This document shows positions 11,736 through 22,061 of a stretch of DNA of 22,061 bases, piece by piece. The first letter of the stretch is position 1. Every line of letters begins with the position of its first letter. Below the pieces are notes generated by a model. The model worked only from the letters and a program-made list of their open reading frames with translations, was not told the origin of the DNA and searched no databases. This stretch comes from a virus. The stretch covers positions 1 to 22,061 of the IMG/VR virus record IMGVR_UViG_3300037200_000071. One strand, given 5' to 3'. The position numbers and the translations under genes were made by a program.

Positions 11736-12473
11736 CTAACTCGGCACGCGCGGCAGGGTGTACCACTGGCCTGCTACAGCACAGGCGAAGCGAGCGGAGG
11801 TGCGAGTCGCCATGGTGATACCCGCATTCGCCGCTAGCGCGTTGATCACTTCGGTCGTGGTGCCACCCGCGTTCGGGAAGACGGCTACCGTGTTGGTGGC
11901 AGTCGTCGTATAAACGTCCAAATACATCCCTGGCACCGACACAGGGAGCAGCACCGAATAGGCGGAACCTGCGCTTGTCACCATATTGATGGTCGCCGTC
12001 AGAGGTGTGGCACCTGACTGGGCAGCGCCTGAATTAGCCGCGATCGTCGCATAGGGAGAAAAGGAGAAGCCCGCCGTGGGGGAAAAGGCATTAGAGGGGC
12101 CGTCAGAATACCAAGCCCCCGTCGCCGCACAGAAATAGGTGGTCGTGCTATTAGGAGCCTGAATCACCCCGGTCGCGGTCGCGATTCCATTGATGGTATC
12201 GGTCCCGGCACCATAGACCTGCATGTTGTTCGCACCGGCATTGACGACGGCGATTTGCATGCCGGGAGTTGATGGCGGCAATGCGACACTATCACCCGCG
12301 GTTGCCACGGTACTCACCCGCACCGTTTGCCCCGTGAGAGGCAATGCGGAGGATTGACCTCCTCCGGCATGGGCGGTCAGGGCATCGACGAACGAGGTCA
12401 GAGCATAATCACCGGGCTGAAACGGGACATTCCCTTGCCATACTCCATAAGCTCGGCCTGTATTGACGGGCAT
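11736..12473 (-). CDS. Beta-rich virion protein with internally duplicated module
   Basis: A 245-aa protein with a strong ribosome-binding site (AAAGGAG, 5 nt, ATG). The sequence contains two copies of one ~85-residue module, residues about 39-123 and 150-239. Shared landmarks are QSSALPLT / QSGATPLT, SVALPPSTPGM / SVLLPVSVPGM, an N-rich strand, DTINGIA / EVINALA, and a closing YFCAATGAWY / RFACAVAGQWY. Single copies of a related module occur in the S74 fibre, the tailspike C-terminus and probably the 154-aa protein. Function is unknown; such modules are common in phage surface proteins and may be small beta-sandwiches. The N-terminal 38 residues (RAYGVWQGNVPFQPGDY) are unique to this protein. 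Confidence 0.75.
   Translation of the reverse strand: MPVNTGRAYGVWQGNVPFQPGDYALTSFVDALTAHAGGGQSSALPLTGQTVRVSTVATAGDSVALPPSTPGMQIAVVNAGANNMQVYGAGTDTINGIATATGVIQAPNSTTTYFCAATGAWYSDGPSNAFSPTAGFSFSPYATIAANSGAAQSGATPLTATINMVTSAGSAYSVLLPVSVPGMYLDVYTTTATNTVAVFPNAGGTTTEVINALAANAGITMATRTSARFACAVAGQWYTLPRVPS
11757..12026 (-). repeat. Module copy 2 in 245-aa protein
   Basis: Encodes residues about 150-239. Landmarks are ATPLT, LPVSVPGM, EVINALA and CAVAGQWY, in the same order as copy 1. Confidence 0.65.
12105..12359 (-). repeat. Module copy 1 in 245-aa protein
   Basis: Encodes residues about 39-123. Landmarks are ALPLT, LPPSTPGM, DTINGIA and CAATGAWY. The second copy follows at 11757-12026. Confidence 0.65.
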
Positions 12474-15512: not shown

Positions 15513-17677
15513 TATTTTGATGCTCCATTCGCAGGTTTCGCCTTAGCCGCCTTACGATCCTTATCCCCTTCTTCCGAGGCGTGCTCCCGCTCAGCCGCGC
15601 CCACGTGCTCGGCGTGCGCCATTTCCCGCTCGGCCATGTCTTTCTCGTGCCGATCGCTTTGGCGGCTATCGATGATGTCCGCACCCGCTTTGAGTTCTGC
15701 CACATCGAGTGCTGTCTGACTACGCTTTTCGGTGTCATGGACCTTGGTGACATTGCTCCCAAGGGCTTTCTCGCGCTCAACCTGCATCCAGCCCTGCTCT
15801 ATGGAGGACTTGTACTTAAGCTCCATTTGTAGCTGCTGGATCATCTTTTGCTGCTCTTGGGATTGGATCATCAACGCCTGAACAATGCCCTTAGCACTGT
15901 GAGGCAAGTTCTCCATGGCCTTAGACATCCCTTGGGTGTTAAGCGGCATGAGACGATCCGCAAGGTCATCAGCACCAGCAAAATCCATATTACGAACAAC
16001 CAAATCCGCCCCTGTCTTGGCGATAGGCTCAGCCAAAGGTGTCTTAAGGAGGTCAAGCATGTTCTCCGCGCCCTCCTGGCGCTTGGTCTCATACCCGGGG
16101 CCTGTATCCATCACGACGTCATAGCGACCGACCGACATGTCATGCTTGATCTCGGTCACACCCTGATCGTTCACTTGGGGTGAATTGATGGCGACCATCT
16201 GCGGCGTCCCATCCTCGCCGATGATGCGCTGCATGCGCTCCTCGCTGTAGTAATAGGGGAATAGATCCAGCAGGATCTCGCCAATGTGGCTGATAAACAT
16301 CGTCTGATTGTCGTAGAACTGGAAATGGCTGATATCGGATAAGGCTTGTCTACGGCGCAGTGCAACACCCGATACGACCTCGCCGGGTGTGTCCTGGCCG
16401 GGCTCGTGAGGCATGCCGGCCACCATCATGAGGTTGCGAATACCAGACTCGGCCGCCTCCTTGAAGCCAGCCTCCACTTCGATTGCAGGTGCCCGTTGTG
16501 GCGGAGGGACACCCTGAAGCGGCTGTCCGTCCATACCTAAAATTAGGTTCCACATCAACTTACCGTAGGGCTTCTGGTTCGCGTCATCCCACTCAGGATG
16601 CCCATCGAACTGCCCAACTACTCCAGTCCATGGAGCTTTCGAAGATAATGCGAGCTTCTCAGCCTTGGCTGTCTCCCAATAGTTAGCCGAACGGGCAGGA
16701 TCCTTCATATCCCGAATCATGCCCTTGCGCCGGACATCGCCATTTAAGTCAAGTACATTGCCCTCGCAACGGCTGATAGGAATGTAGCGGCCCGGGAGAT
16801 CACGCTGCTCAGCCACTTTGGTGCCCGTGAGCCTGAACCACTGAACTGTACGACGCTCGGACGGTCGTTTATCCACAATGGAAACTTGGGCGAGTTCAAA
16901 CGCCTCTTTTTGGCGTCGGTACTGAGATGCAAATAGAGTATTACCGTTGGAGAGCTTATAGAGCGTGTCTTTGACCCGCTTGATGCGATAGTACTCGGCA
17001 AGGCGGATAGATTCTTTGTTCTCCCACTTGTGTTGATCATCCCCTGGGGCTCCGTGGGGCCATTCATTGAGATATTCATCGGGGTACGCTCGCTTGAAGG
17101 CGGTTTTCTTCATCCACTCGGTGATGATGAACCAGTCGGCATCTGAGCCGTCGGGCATGACGGAGGCTGGGTCGATATAGCAGGTGAGGGCATTACGGAT
17201 GGGCTTGATCTTGAGTTCCTGCTCGAAGCTCTTTTCGTCTATGTATTCGCCCACGACACGTGCATAACCCCAGCCTATCCTGACAGCAGACGCGCCAGCT
17301 GTGTCATACGCAACAGATGCCTTCGAGAGCGTTTCGACATGACGAACCAAGCCATTCGCCACGCGGGCATCGTCAATAGTAGCATCCGAAACGGGGTGCA
17401 CTTTGATACGCGGGCGCTGTTCACGCATATTGTTCGTGACACGACGAACGAGTGTCGCGGTGTGATTAATCGTAAGGGAGGGCCGGCGCTGGATCTTACG
17501 GAGATTGTAAATGTCATCGGGCCACTGCTGTCCATCCTCGAACTCCAGATCCTCTATCGCGAGAAGACGGTTAGGCGACTCGATCTCCTCGGCAATGCGC
17601 AGGCGCTCACTCGCCTCCATCCAGACTTCTGGGTCTGTTTCGGCCTGCTCTGCATAATCACGCGGTACATCTGGCAT
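15512..17677 (-). CDS. Portal protein, P22 gp1-like
   Basis: A 721-aa protein, close to the 725 aa of P22 portal. It forms the dodecameric channel for DNA entry at one capsid vertex. Family-type motifs include FEDGQQWPDDIYNLRKIQRR (residues around 46-65), RPSLTINHTATLVRRVTNNM, RPRIKVHPV and ADWFIITEWMKK. Residues 589-721 form a long Gln, Glu and Lys-rich helical tail (QSQEQQKMIQQLQMELKYK), consistent with the long C-terminal barrel of P22 portal. The gene starts at ATG 17677, 53 nt downstream of the 94-aa gene, with only a weak Shine-Dalgarno. It ends by overlapping the scaffold start. Family assignment is strong. Confidence 0.92.
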   Translation of the reverse strand: MPDVPRDYAEQAETDPEVWMEASERLRIAEEIESPNRLLAIEDLEFEDGQQWPDDIYNLRKIQRRPSLTINHTATLVRRVTNNMREQRPRIKVHPVSDATIDDARVANGLVRHVETLSKASVAYDTAGASAVRIGWGYARVVGEYIDEKSFEQELKIKPIRNALTCYIDPASVMPDGSDADWFIITEWMKKTAFKRAYPDEYLNEWPHGAPGDDQHKWENKESIRLAEYYRIKRVKDTLYKLSNGNTLFASQYRRQKEAFELAQVSIVDKRPSERRTVQWFRLTGTKVAEQRDLPGRYIPISRCEGNVLDLNGDVRRKGMIRDMKDPARSANYWETAKAEKLALSSKAPWTGVVGQFDGHPEWDDANQKPYGKLMWNLILGMDGQPLQGVPPPQRAPAIEVEAGFKEAAESGIRNLMMVAGMPHEPGQDTPGEVVSGVALRRRQALSDISHFQFYDNQTMFISHIGEILLDLFPYYYSEERMQRIIGEDGTPQMVAINSPQVNDQGVTEIKHDMSVGRYDVVMDTGPGYETKRQEGAENMLDLLKTPLAEPIAKTGADLVVRNMDFAGADDLADRLMPLNTQGMSKAMENLPHSAKGIVQALMIQSQEQQKMIQQLQMELKYKSSIEQGWMQVEREKALGSNVTKVHDTEKRSQTALDVAELKAGADIIDSRQSDRHEKDMAEREMAHAEHVGAAEREHASEEGDKDRKAAKAKPANGASK

Positions 17678-19980: not shown

Positions 19981-20207
19981 TGCACTGTGTCAATTTCACG
20001 GGTACTCGATACGACGAGGGAGACCTTGTACTTGGTCTTCGAGTCGATGACGTGATCTGGCTTTAAGTACGCATCAATCATATCCATGAGCGGGTTAATG
20101 ACCTGTTTAATCAATTGGTTGCGCGCGGTAATGATGCCGTAATCAAGATCTACGCACTCGACCGCATAATTCTGTTTCTCGATTTGTGGGCCTTGGACTT
20201 CAGTCAT
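19977..20207 (-). CDS. Hypothetical protein, 76 aa
   Basis: ATG at 20207 overlaps the end of the co-chaperonin gene by 8 nt, and the stop overlaps the next start as ATGA. The protein has a helical core, RNQLIKQVINPLMDMIDAYL, resembling in pattern LLKRVIEPMFSCL of the following gene. The C-terminus forms strands (KYKVSLVVSSTREIDTV). No family is recognised. The translation signals suggest tight coupling in the same operon as the co-chaperonin and terminase. Confidence 0.65.
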   Translation of the reverse strand: MTEVQGPQIEKQNYAVECVDLDYGIITARNQLIKQVINPLMDMIDAYLKPDHVIDSKTKYKVSLVVSSTREIDTVQ

Positions 20208-20607
20208 ACACGATCGCGATATCTTGTTCGGAGCACACGATCACTTCTTTGCTGCCCCATCGGACGGTGGCGAACAGGTAGCCGCGTATCTCAAGTCCTC
20301 CAAGTTCGACCACATCACCGACTTTGACCTCGGTCGGACGGAAACTCTTACTGTCCCAGGTTTTGCTGCGCTGCCCTTTCGGGCCGTTGTAGAGCTTTGG
20401 GTATCGGCCCGGGCCAATCGCTCTAACCCGCCCCCGGAGAGGCTTACCGGTATAGACAACTTCGAGGGTGGAGGAGGGCTTCCAATCGAGGGGCTCGATG
20501 ACGATATTGTCCCTAAGGGGCCTAATGTGAGCTTCGGCCGGCACGGATGTGATGGACTCATTGCCTACTCGTACGCCCGGGACTTCAATCGATAGGCCGT
20601 CATTCAT
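20200..20607 (-). CDS. GroES-like co-chaperonin
   Basis: A 135-aa protein whose residues 28-135 follow the chaperonin-10 pattern: IRPLRDNIVIEPL (GroES IRPLHDRVIV), GRVRAIGPG (GEVLAVGNG), VKVGDVVEL (VKVGDIVIF), and EVIVCSEQDIAIVYD (EVLIMSESDILAIVEA). Between these lies a shortened mobile-loop region with EVVYTGKP in place of the IVL GroEL-binding motif. The protein is longer than GroES (97 aa), with 27 extra N-terminal residues and an insert around residues 72-92. Phage co-chaperonins such as T4 gp31 replace GroES to fold the coat protein in GroEL. A similar role for the coat gene downstream is plausible. It starts by ATGA overlap with the 48-aa gene. Confidence 0.75.
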   Translation of the reverse strand: MNDGLSIEVPGVRVGNESITSVPAEAHIRPLRDNIVIEPLDWKPSSTLEVVYTGKPLRGRVRAIGPGRYPKLYNGPKGQRSKTWDSKSFRPTEVKVGDVVELGGLEIRGYLFATVRWGSKEVIVCSEQDIAIVYD

Positions 20608-20907: not shown

Positions 20908-21143
20908 CCGGAGCCTGGGAATAAGGTCTTGCCACCCTCGCTGCCATCGGGGGCTTTACCGCCGATACTGACATCGTGGGCATTCGATAGATCGAATTGC
21001 ACACCCCCCCGGAGTTTGGGCTCTGGAGCGATCGTATATTGCCCCAGGAGGTTTCTCATCTGTTTGGTGCCCGAACGGAGCACCATACCCTCTCGGGGCT
21101 TGCCAGAGGATCCTACGACGGCTCTATCGTCACCCTTGGCCAT
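20904..21143 (-). CDS. Hypothetical protein, 79 aa
   Basis: The gene starts by TAATG overlap with the 59-aa gene at 21143 and ends by ATGA overlap with the next. The product is Gly, Lys and Ser rich (GSSGKPREGMVLRSGTKQM, later GGKAPDGSEGGKTLFPGSG) with no hydrophobic segment. No domain is recognised. Its composition resembles that of the preceding 59-aa protein, and both may be small, disordered DNA- or RNA-binding or assembly factors (inference). Confidence 0.65.
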   Translation of the reverse strand: MAKGDDRAVVGSSGKPREGMVLRSGTKQMRNLLGQYTIAPEPKLRGGVQFDLSNAHDVSIGGKAPDGSEGGKTLFPGSG

Positions 21144-21322
21144 TACGGTCTCTTCGGGCCTGATTCCATGCCGTGATAGTTATGGACCGGGAAGCGTATG
21201 CCGTTGCCATCGCTCGAGCCCACTTTCTCCTCACTCTTGATCGAGCCCTTACCGGCCTGACCACGATCCTGGTGCTTGGGCTCTCCCTTCATCGACTCTC
21301 GATTCTCTGGCTTGCCGGGCAT
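21143..21322 (-). CDS. Small basic hypothetical protein, 59 aa
   Basis: ATG 21322 is preceded by a perfect AAGGAG with 6-nt spacing, so translation is well supported despite the short length. The product is hydrophilic, Lys, Gly, Glu and Pro rich (MPGKPENRESMKGEPKHQDR at the start), and probably disordered. The end, IRFPVHNYHGMESGPKRP, is more ordered-looking. Its TAA overlaps the ATG of the next gene (TAATG). No family is recognised. Confidence 0.65.
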   Translation of the reverse strand: MPGKPENRESMKGEPKHQDRGQAGKGSIKSEEKVGSSDGNGIRFPVHNYHGMESGPKRP

Positions 21323-21385
21323 GTGGAGCTCCTTGTGAAGTGATCGGAATCTAACCGTTTAGCCGTCTGTTTGCAATCGATCGCA

Positions 21386-21399
21386 GGCATGAAGATGCC
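21386..21399 (-). other. Short hairpin after the GIY-YIG-type gene
   Basis: GGCAT-CTTC-ATGCC on the coding strand, a 5-bp stem with a 4-nt loop beginning 7 nt after the TAG. No T-tract follows, so it is not a convincing terminator. It may be an mRNA-stabilising or processing hairpin. Confidence 0.3.
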
Positions 21400-21406
21400 A
21401 CTTTCC

Positions 21407-21685
21407 CTAGGCGTCCGATAAATGTTCCAATTCCCATCCCTTCTGCACTACAACATCTGCACATCTAAACCACTCTCCCCTGATGTGATATCTCTTGAGA
21501 TTCCTATGAATTAGACGCTCGACATAGAGAGCATGCATCTCACTTCTACAACGTATCTTGGCCATCATCTTCATTTCCCCCGGACATCCAGTTTGCATCT
21601 GTTTCAGCCGTTCCTCCGGATTTCTAGATTTTCCTATCTTCATGCGAGACGGCTTAGTAGAAGCTTTTATAAAGTAAACGTACAT
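21407..21685 (-). CDS. GIY-YIG/T5orf172 (MUG113-like) nuclease-family protein
   Basis: A 92-aa protein. The N-terminal MYVYFIKA supplies the first strand, followed by MKIGKSRNPEERLKQMQTG, in which the I-G and Arg of the GIY-YIG superfamily can be seen. The later segment ALYVERLIHRNLKRYHIRGE carries the Glu-containing helix and ends in GEWF, typical of MUG113/T5orf172 members. The whole domain fits in 92 residues, so no other domain is fused. Family members are often found in phages and are thought to cut DNA, but substrates are mostly unknown. Upstream Shine-Dalgarno is weak. The gene follows a 170-nt intergenic region with repeats. Confidence 0.8.
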   Translation of the reverse strand: MYVYFIKASTKPSRMKIGKSRNPEERLKQMQTGCPGEMKMMAKIRCRSEMHALYVERLIHRNLKRYHIRGEWFRCADVVVQKGWELEHLSDA

Positions 21686-21695
21686 GCTACGCTGA

Positions 21696-21711
21696 CCGAC
21701 ATTCCAGTCGG
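21696..21711 (-). promoter_or_regulatory. Hairpin directly upstream of the GIY-YIG-type gene
   Basis: CCGAC-TGGAAT-GTCGG on the coding strand, a 5-bp GC-rich stem with a 6-nt loop, ending 10 nt before the ATG. It lies where a Shine-Dalgarno sequence would be and may limit ribosome access, or it may be an operator. Function is unknown. Confidence 0.3.
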
Positions 21712-21779
21712 GGCGCGGATCTAAACCTTAAGAATAAGATTCCAGAGGGTTTAGCGCATAAGTGCATAAAACCAAGAAT

Positions 21780-21795
21780 TCTGATAAGAATCAGA
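21780..21795. repeat. Inverted repeat next to DnaA-box cluster
   Basis: TCTGAT-AAGA-ATCAGA is a perfect 6-bp inverted repeat with a 4-nt centre, 9 nt from the 11-bp direct repeats. Two GCATAA hexamers with 8-bp period lie nearby at 21756-21769. This may be a small operator. No convincing promoter could be picked in the region. Confidence 0.35.
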
Positions 21796-21803
21796 TACAT
21801 AGT

Positions 21804-21858
21804 CTGTGGATAACCTGTGGATAAGTCTGTTAGTAACCTGTGAATATGCTGTGAATTA
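21804..21858. repeat. Five 11-bp direct repeats including two perfect DnaA boxes
   Basis: Repeats begin with CTGT at 21804, 21815, 21827, 21838 and 21849, so the period is 11, 12, 11 and 11 bp. The first two contain TGTGGATAA, the reverse complement of the consensus DnaA box TTATCCACA. The third (TGTTAGTAA), fourth (TGTGAATAT) and fifth (TGTGAATTA) are degenerate. Sites at one-turn spacing would place bound proteins on the same DNA face. The last repeat includes the stop codon of the upstream gene. An AT-rich stretch follows. It could be an origin, a DnaA-controlled regulatory region, or binding sites for a phage regulator. Confidence 0.6.
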
Positions 21859-22061
21859 GATATCCATTGCATAAACAGCCACACGGCGCTTGCTCGGTAA
21901 TTTGATCATGGTTGAGTGGATCCGATGACCGCGGTGCTTTAGCTCCCGAATGCGCTCGGAGAGGCGACAGCAATCGAACAATCGCCACGCCTGATCGGTG
22001 GTGAGCACCCGTCGAGTCTTCAGGTGTGCGAGGATCTGCGCACATTGGCTGCCATGCTGCA
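21856..22061 (-). CDS. Partial winged-helix/HTH protein (C-terminal end)
   Basis: An open frame enters from beyond the window edge and ends at TAA 21858-21856, giving 67 visible residues. No start lies within the window. The sequence AQILAHLKTRRVLTTDQAWR, then RLSERIRELKHRGHRI and RRVAVYAMDI, follows the small helix-turn-helix family (HTH_39 type) seen in many phages: a helix, T-x-x-x-A turn, recognition helix with R-x-x-E-L-x-x-x-G, and a wing ending in Y. It probably binds DNA. The binding site could be the direct repeats immediately downstream, one of which overlaps this stop codon. The missing N-terminus prevents a full assignment. Confidence 0.7.
   Translation of the reverse strand, partial: QHGSQCAQILAHLKTRRVLTTDQAWRLFDCCRLSERIRELKHRGHRIHSTMIKLPSKRRVAVYAMDI

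Follow-up and report, generated by a model that had tools for sequence, protein, structure and literature searches.

The window analysed here corresponds to an entire IMG/VR record (22,061 bases) of the linear class, whose members are often fragments. This one comes from a P22-portal podovirus, whose genome it covers only in part. It encodes a P22-type portal (PF16510, E 4.9e-140), a major head protein, a scaffold, a terminase large subunit, a Peptidase_S74 fibre and a GroES-like protein, and its main genes lie on the minus strand. The GroES/Cpn10-like gene (20200–20607, minus strand) is located between the early genes and terL, and is common to the relatives and phage PBR31. At the right end, a repeat array directly follows the HTH_39 stop codon (21856), and the GIY-YIG gene (21685–21407) starts after a further 118 bp. 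The record ends 203 bp past the array, and the remaining early region lies beyond that end. Rfam and tRNA searches gave no match, and no DNA-level relatives of the right 8 kb were found among deposited phages. Relatives of the HTH_39 protein in viral contigs were limited to one distant match and the same three known relatives.

The five-unit array and its flanks

The features of the region are as follows.

21407–21685, minus strand: GIY-YIG / T5orf172 protein (PF10544, MUG113; E 1.2e-15), first gene after the array
21690–21717, minus strand: hairpin CGC...CCGAC-TGGAAT-GTCGG...GCG, just upstream of the GIY-YIG start codon
21721–21754, minus strand: hairpin with 7-bp outer stem CTAAACC...GGTTTAG
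21729–21740, minus strand: AT-rich 12-mer, copy 2, ATCTTATTCTTA
21757–21876: least stable 120-bp duplex of the whole 22-kb record, with the array a candidate DNA unwinding element (DUE)
21780–21795, minus strand: hairpin TCTGAT-TCTT-ATCAGA
21785–21796, minus strand: AT-rich 12-mer, copy 1, ATCTGATTCTTA, 11/12 identical to copy 2
21805–21813, minus strand: DnaA box 1, TTATCCACA, perfect
21816–21824, minus strand: DnaA box 2, TTATCCACA, perfect, 2-bp gap to box 1
21828–21836, minus strand: degenerate unit 3, TTACTAACA, 2 mismatches, 3-bp gap
21839–21847, minus strand: degenerate unit 4, ATATTCACA, 1 mismatch, 2-bp gap
21850–21858, minus strand: degenerate unit 5, TAATTCACA, 1 mismatch, 2-bp gap, overlapping the HTH_39 stop codon
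21856–22059, minus strand: HTH_39 (PF14090) winged-HTH protein (E 2.1e-17, phrog_4973), start beyond the record end

The array (21804–21858) is non-coding and consists of five head-to-tail units beginning with CTGT, which start at 21804, 21815, 21827, 21838 and 21849 with spacings of 11, 12, 11 and 11 bp. Compared with the DnaA box TTATNCACA, the units show 0, 0, 2, 1 and 1 mismatches, and they lie on the same strand with gaps of 2, 3, 2 and 2 bp. The minus strand of the array reads TAATTCACA gc ATATTCACA gg TTACTAACA gac TTATCCACA gg TTATCCACA. The best five-unit chain has 4 mismatches in total, versus at least 14 in 1,200 shuffles (200 whole-window and 1,000 local dinucleotide shuffles), and a perfect pair at 11 bp was observed in 0/300 shuffles. 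The coordinates and the shuffles thus confirm the five units with two perfect boxes described in the original prediction. The window contains a single further perfect DnaA box, which is isolated at 16869.

The neighbourhood had also been described as AT-rich with a 6-bp inverted repeat, and both features are real. At lengths of 50, 80 and 120 bp, the weakest helix of the entire record in each case spans the array or the flank immediately to its left, and the inverted repeat is the minus-strand hairpin at 21780–21795. Across viral contigs, however, AT-rich flanks were equally frequent around a control motif, and no class-wide DUE signal above the control was observed; therefore, the weakest helix is used here only as supporting evidence. 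The 118 bp between the array and the GIY-YIG gene contain the two AT-rich 12-mers (ATCTKATTCTTA). As single-stranded DNA, this 118-nt segment folds better than 200/200 shuffles (z −3.7), and 2.7% of the window segments fold equally well for their GC content. Near the array, no IHF consensus and no intrinsic terminators were found, and a search by eye for the DnaA-trio motif gave no convincing candidate.

Helical phasing of DnaA-box pairs in viral contigs

Viral contigs were scanned for two perfect same-orientation DnaA boxes located 9–37 bp apart, and the DnaA box read backwards (a 9-mer) was used as the control in the same test. At least 120 raw pairs were obtained for each motif, so that the spacing pattern alone, and not the pair counts, is taken as evidence. 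Among the matches listed, the spacings of the DnaA pairs cluster at 11–13, 20–22 and 30–34 bp, and none is observed at 14–16, 26–28 or 35–37 bp. For 78 non-redundant contigs among these matches, the phasing at a period of 10.5 reaches R 0.75 (p about 1e-19). It persists past the first helical turn (R 0.63, p about 1e-7, among the matches listed). The control pairs listed show codon periodicity (R 0.57 at period 3) with no helical signal, and inverted DnaA-box pairs are weakly phased (R 0.26). Among the matches listed, 25/80 DnaA pairs lie inside long open frames (55/80 outside), versus 53/80 for the control. The contigs behind these observations are IMG/VR L082–L100 and L251–L311. Because the viral same-orientation pairs are helically phased and mostly non-coding, whereas the control is only codon-periodic, the window array is, on this analysis, a member of a recurrent class that resembles the DnaA arrays with 2-bp gaps in E. 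coli oriC.

Three more contigs carry arrays near the format of the window array, and in two of them, probable replication genes are followed downstream by rows of boxes. L248 (~12393–12435) and L250 (~805–847) each contain a row of about eight DnaA boxes at 11–13 bp spacing, beside TGTCCAC repeats. A small HTH gene and a cluster of probable replication genes lie upstream of these rows; judged by reading, the cluster probably includes a replication helicase/primase. Genes adjoining viral DnaA-box pairs were not enriched for replication functions in comparison with genes farther away. Terminase, ParB and nuclease genes were slightly commoner as neighbours than among distant genes, in numbers too small to weigh.

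Stretches similar to the array were also found in Pseudomonas megaplasmids and T5-like phages. In the left terminal repeat of T5-like phages, an almost identical pair, CTGTGGATAAGTCTGTTAATAAC, is present, and repeats, palindromes and DnaA boxes have been described for the T5-like injection-stop region (PMC13250531); hairpins flank the window array, too. The array could accordingly be a T5-like injection-stop or DNA-transfer control signal. The window phage, however, is a P22-type podovirus, and comparison with its relatives places the array at an internal gene junction of a fragmentary record, not in a terminal repeat of first-step transfer. Two-step injection is not known for P22-like phages, and we regard such a signal as highly improbable.

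The replication-module slot in relatives

Relatives were collected by TerL (78–89% identity). The relatives have a slot, bounded by the cro/HTH_39 genes on one side and the GroES-like/terminase genes on the other, with a lambda-O-like initiator gene that contains iterons. In both L003 and L072, the O-like gene comes after an ortholog of HTH_39. The L072 gene (7157–7672) corresponds to phrog_391 (E 1.9e-23), and contains three DnaA boxes, TGTGGATAA-TGTGAATAA-TTATCCACA, followed by three GCACGTGGTGCACCC-type iterons. The L003 protein has no PHROGs match and has a C-terminal motif in common with the L072 protein (60% over 30 residues); TGTCCAC iterons and one DnaA box are located inside its gene. 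At L003:5153–5192, two exact tandem 20-bp repeats, CATAACCATTGTAATTGCTA, run from the HTH_39 stop codon, and an inverted repeat around TTGGACTGTCCACAATAGTCCAA follows. L007 and L026 encode relatives of the L003 O-like protein, with repeats inside and upstream of the gene. L005 encodes a replication initiator together with a P-like loader at the corresponding place, and L004 has an HNH gene in the slot and no perfect DnaA box. The isolated Xanthomonas phage PBR31 (42% portal identity) shows the order repressor, two small genes, replication protein, further genes, Q, GroES, terL and portal. Very Ala/Arg-rich repetitive frames are present in the early region and at the record end of relatives (L004:1–630 and L208:1–1041).

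Since the relatives and PBR31 keep initiator genes there, the array occupies, as judged by gene order, the slot that holds the replication module in the relatives. No O-like gene or O remnant was detected in the visible part of the window phage; the slot there consists of the array and the GIY-YIG gene only. The array had been placed just before the late operon. This is roughly correct, and the slot is that of an early replication gene in the relatives, followed by small genes, the GroES-like gene and terL. The proposed search for the array in relatives gave a divided result. The L072 cluster lies at the same place inside the O-like gene and L003 has one box there, whereas the L004, L005, L010 and L011 records contain 0 perfect DnaA boxes. 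The closest relatives lack the exact array, and the three-box cluster of L072 is different from it. At 37 loci of bacterial genomes that encode TerL relatives, no DnaA-box cluster was found nearby.

Iterons that are short and phased are common in this phage group; thus, the main competing explanation is that the array consists of iterons, or of an operator recognised by a phage protein, either an O-like initiator encoded off the record or HTH_39, and resembles DnaA boxes by chance. Phage-specific iterons in the group have a period of about 9–12 bp or 20 bp. PBR31 has iterons TCAACGCGATATCA at 11 and 11 bp, L007 has TCTCAACAC and L026 has AGTCGACCAC, and the L003 iteron GTCCACACTGTCCACC has TCCAC(A) in common with the DnaA box. 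Repeats upstream of the O gene are also present in L003, L007 and L026. The iterons of the relatives, however, are located inside and just upstream of an O gene, which was not detected in the window, and a chance iteron would hardly give two perfect 9-bp matches to the DnaA box. The HTH protein, named in the original prediction as a competing reader, is weakened in this role because its orthologs in L003 and L004 (63–66% identical) have no such array alongside. We therefore regard the iteron or operator explanation as unlikely.

The array may also be a DnaA-responsive transcription switch or a DnaA-titrating cluster, which would sense the replication state of the host and control the genes from GIY-YIG onward. 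DnaA also regulates transcription at some of the regions that it binds (PMC4447404), and a co-directional gene starts 118 bp downstream of the array. No sigma-70-like promoter was found in 21100–22061, however, the slot in the relatives is a replication slot, and titration would not need the strict phasing. A switch or titration role is thus quite unlikely in our estimate.

A putative DnaA-dependent origin and known systems

Our preferred reading, with a probability of roughly 0.6, is that the array is a cluster of host-DnaA binding sites that forms all or part of the phage replication origin. As five in-line DnaA sites stand in the initiator slot of the relatives, the phage probably relies on the replication machinery of its host to start copying its DNA. 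The sites themselves are real, and from them we infer DnaA binding, duplex opening and origin activity at the array. In this model, DnaA would first occupy the two perfect boxes and then spread cooperatively over the three weaker units, with the 11–12-bp period keeping the same face of the helix, as in oriC arrays. The easily melted adjoining DNA (21757–21876) would open, and the host DnaB would be loaded there. DnaA may act alone or together with a phage initiator encoded off the record. In E. coli oriC, low-affinity sites form 2-bp-gap arrays beside high-affinity boxes (PMC6727663), and host DnaA boxes are part of the origins of the iteron plasmids P1, F, RK2 and pSC101 (PMC4980987).

The origin proposed in the original prediction is favoured by the box identity, the oriC-like 2-bp gaps, the phasing of the class, the melting minimum and the slot, and the absence of the array from the closest relatives counts against it. 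The suggested GC-skew analysis of the window fragment and L003 gave no origin signal, which is also counted against an origin, as are the missing IHF consensus near the array, the equally frequent AT-rich flanks of the control motif and the lack of replication enrichment among neighbours of viral DnaA-box pairs. A more speculative proposal, doubtful as a whole, is that the O-type initiator was lost and host DnaA starts replication directly at an oriC-like array in the former initiator slot, and that phased DnaA-box arrays are a widespread, largely unannotated class of phage origins. If this is true, a lambda-like replication module would have been reduced to a host-DnaA array, and phage replication would be tied to the initiation clock of the host. 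Origins of uncultured phages are rarely annotated, and phased, mostly non-coding viral DnaA-box pairs may provide a simple rule for spotting such elements.

Four known systems were compared with the window array. The left terminal repeat (injection-stop region) of T5-like phages has a nearly identical two-unit stretch, CTGTGGATAAGTCTGTTA(A/G)TAAC, with palindromes nearby, whereas the window array belongs to an unrelated phage and another genomic location. The lambda-type O-gene origins of L003, L072 and PBR31 have short direct repeats in the same slot, and L072 also has DnaA boxes; unlike in these origins, the repeats of the window are non-coding and its visible part has no O gene. In iteron-plasmid origins such as P1 oriR and RK2 oriV, as in the window, several host DnaA boxes are located near an AT-rich element of a mobile replicon (PMC4980987). 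The window shows no Rep gene and no separate Rep iterons, however, and its array is flanked by HTH_39 and GIY-YIG genes. Unlike E. coli oriC, the phage array has five sites on one side only, with no opposed second array and no IHF site found, and its role as an origin is putative. The E. coli oriC arrays (R5M-tau2-I1-I2 and C3-C2-I3-C1) nevertheless consist, like the window array, of head-to-tail 9-mers with 2-bp gaps that combine strong and weak boxes, and easily melted DNA adjoins both (PMC6727663).
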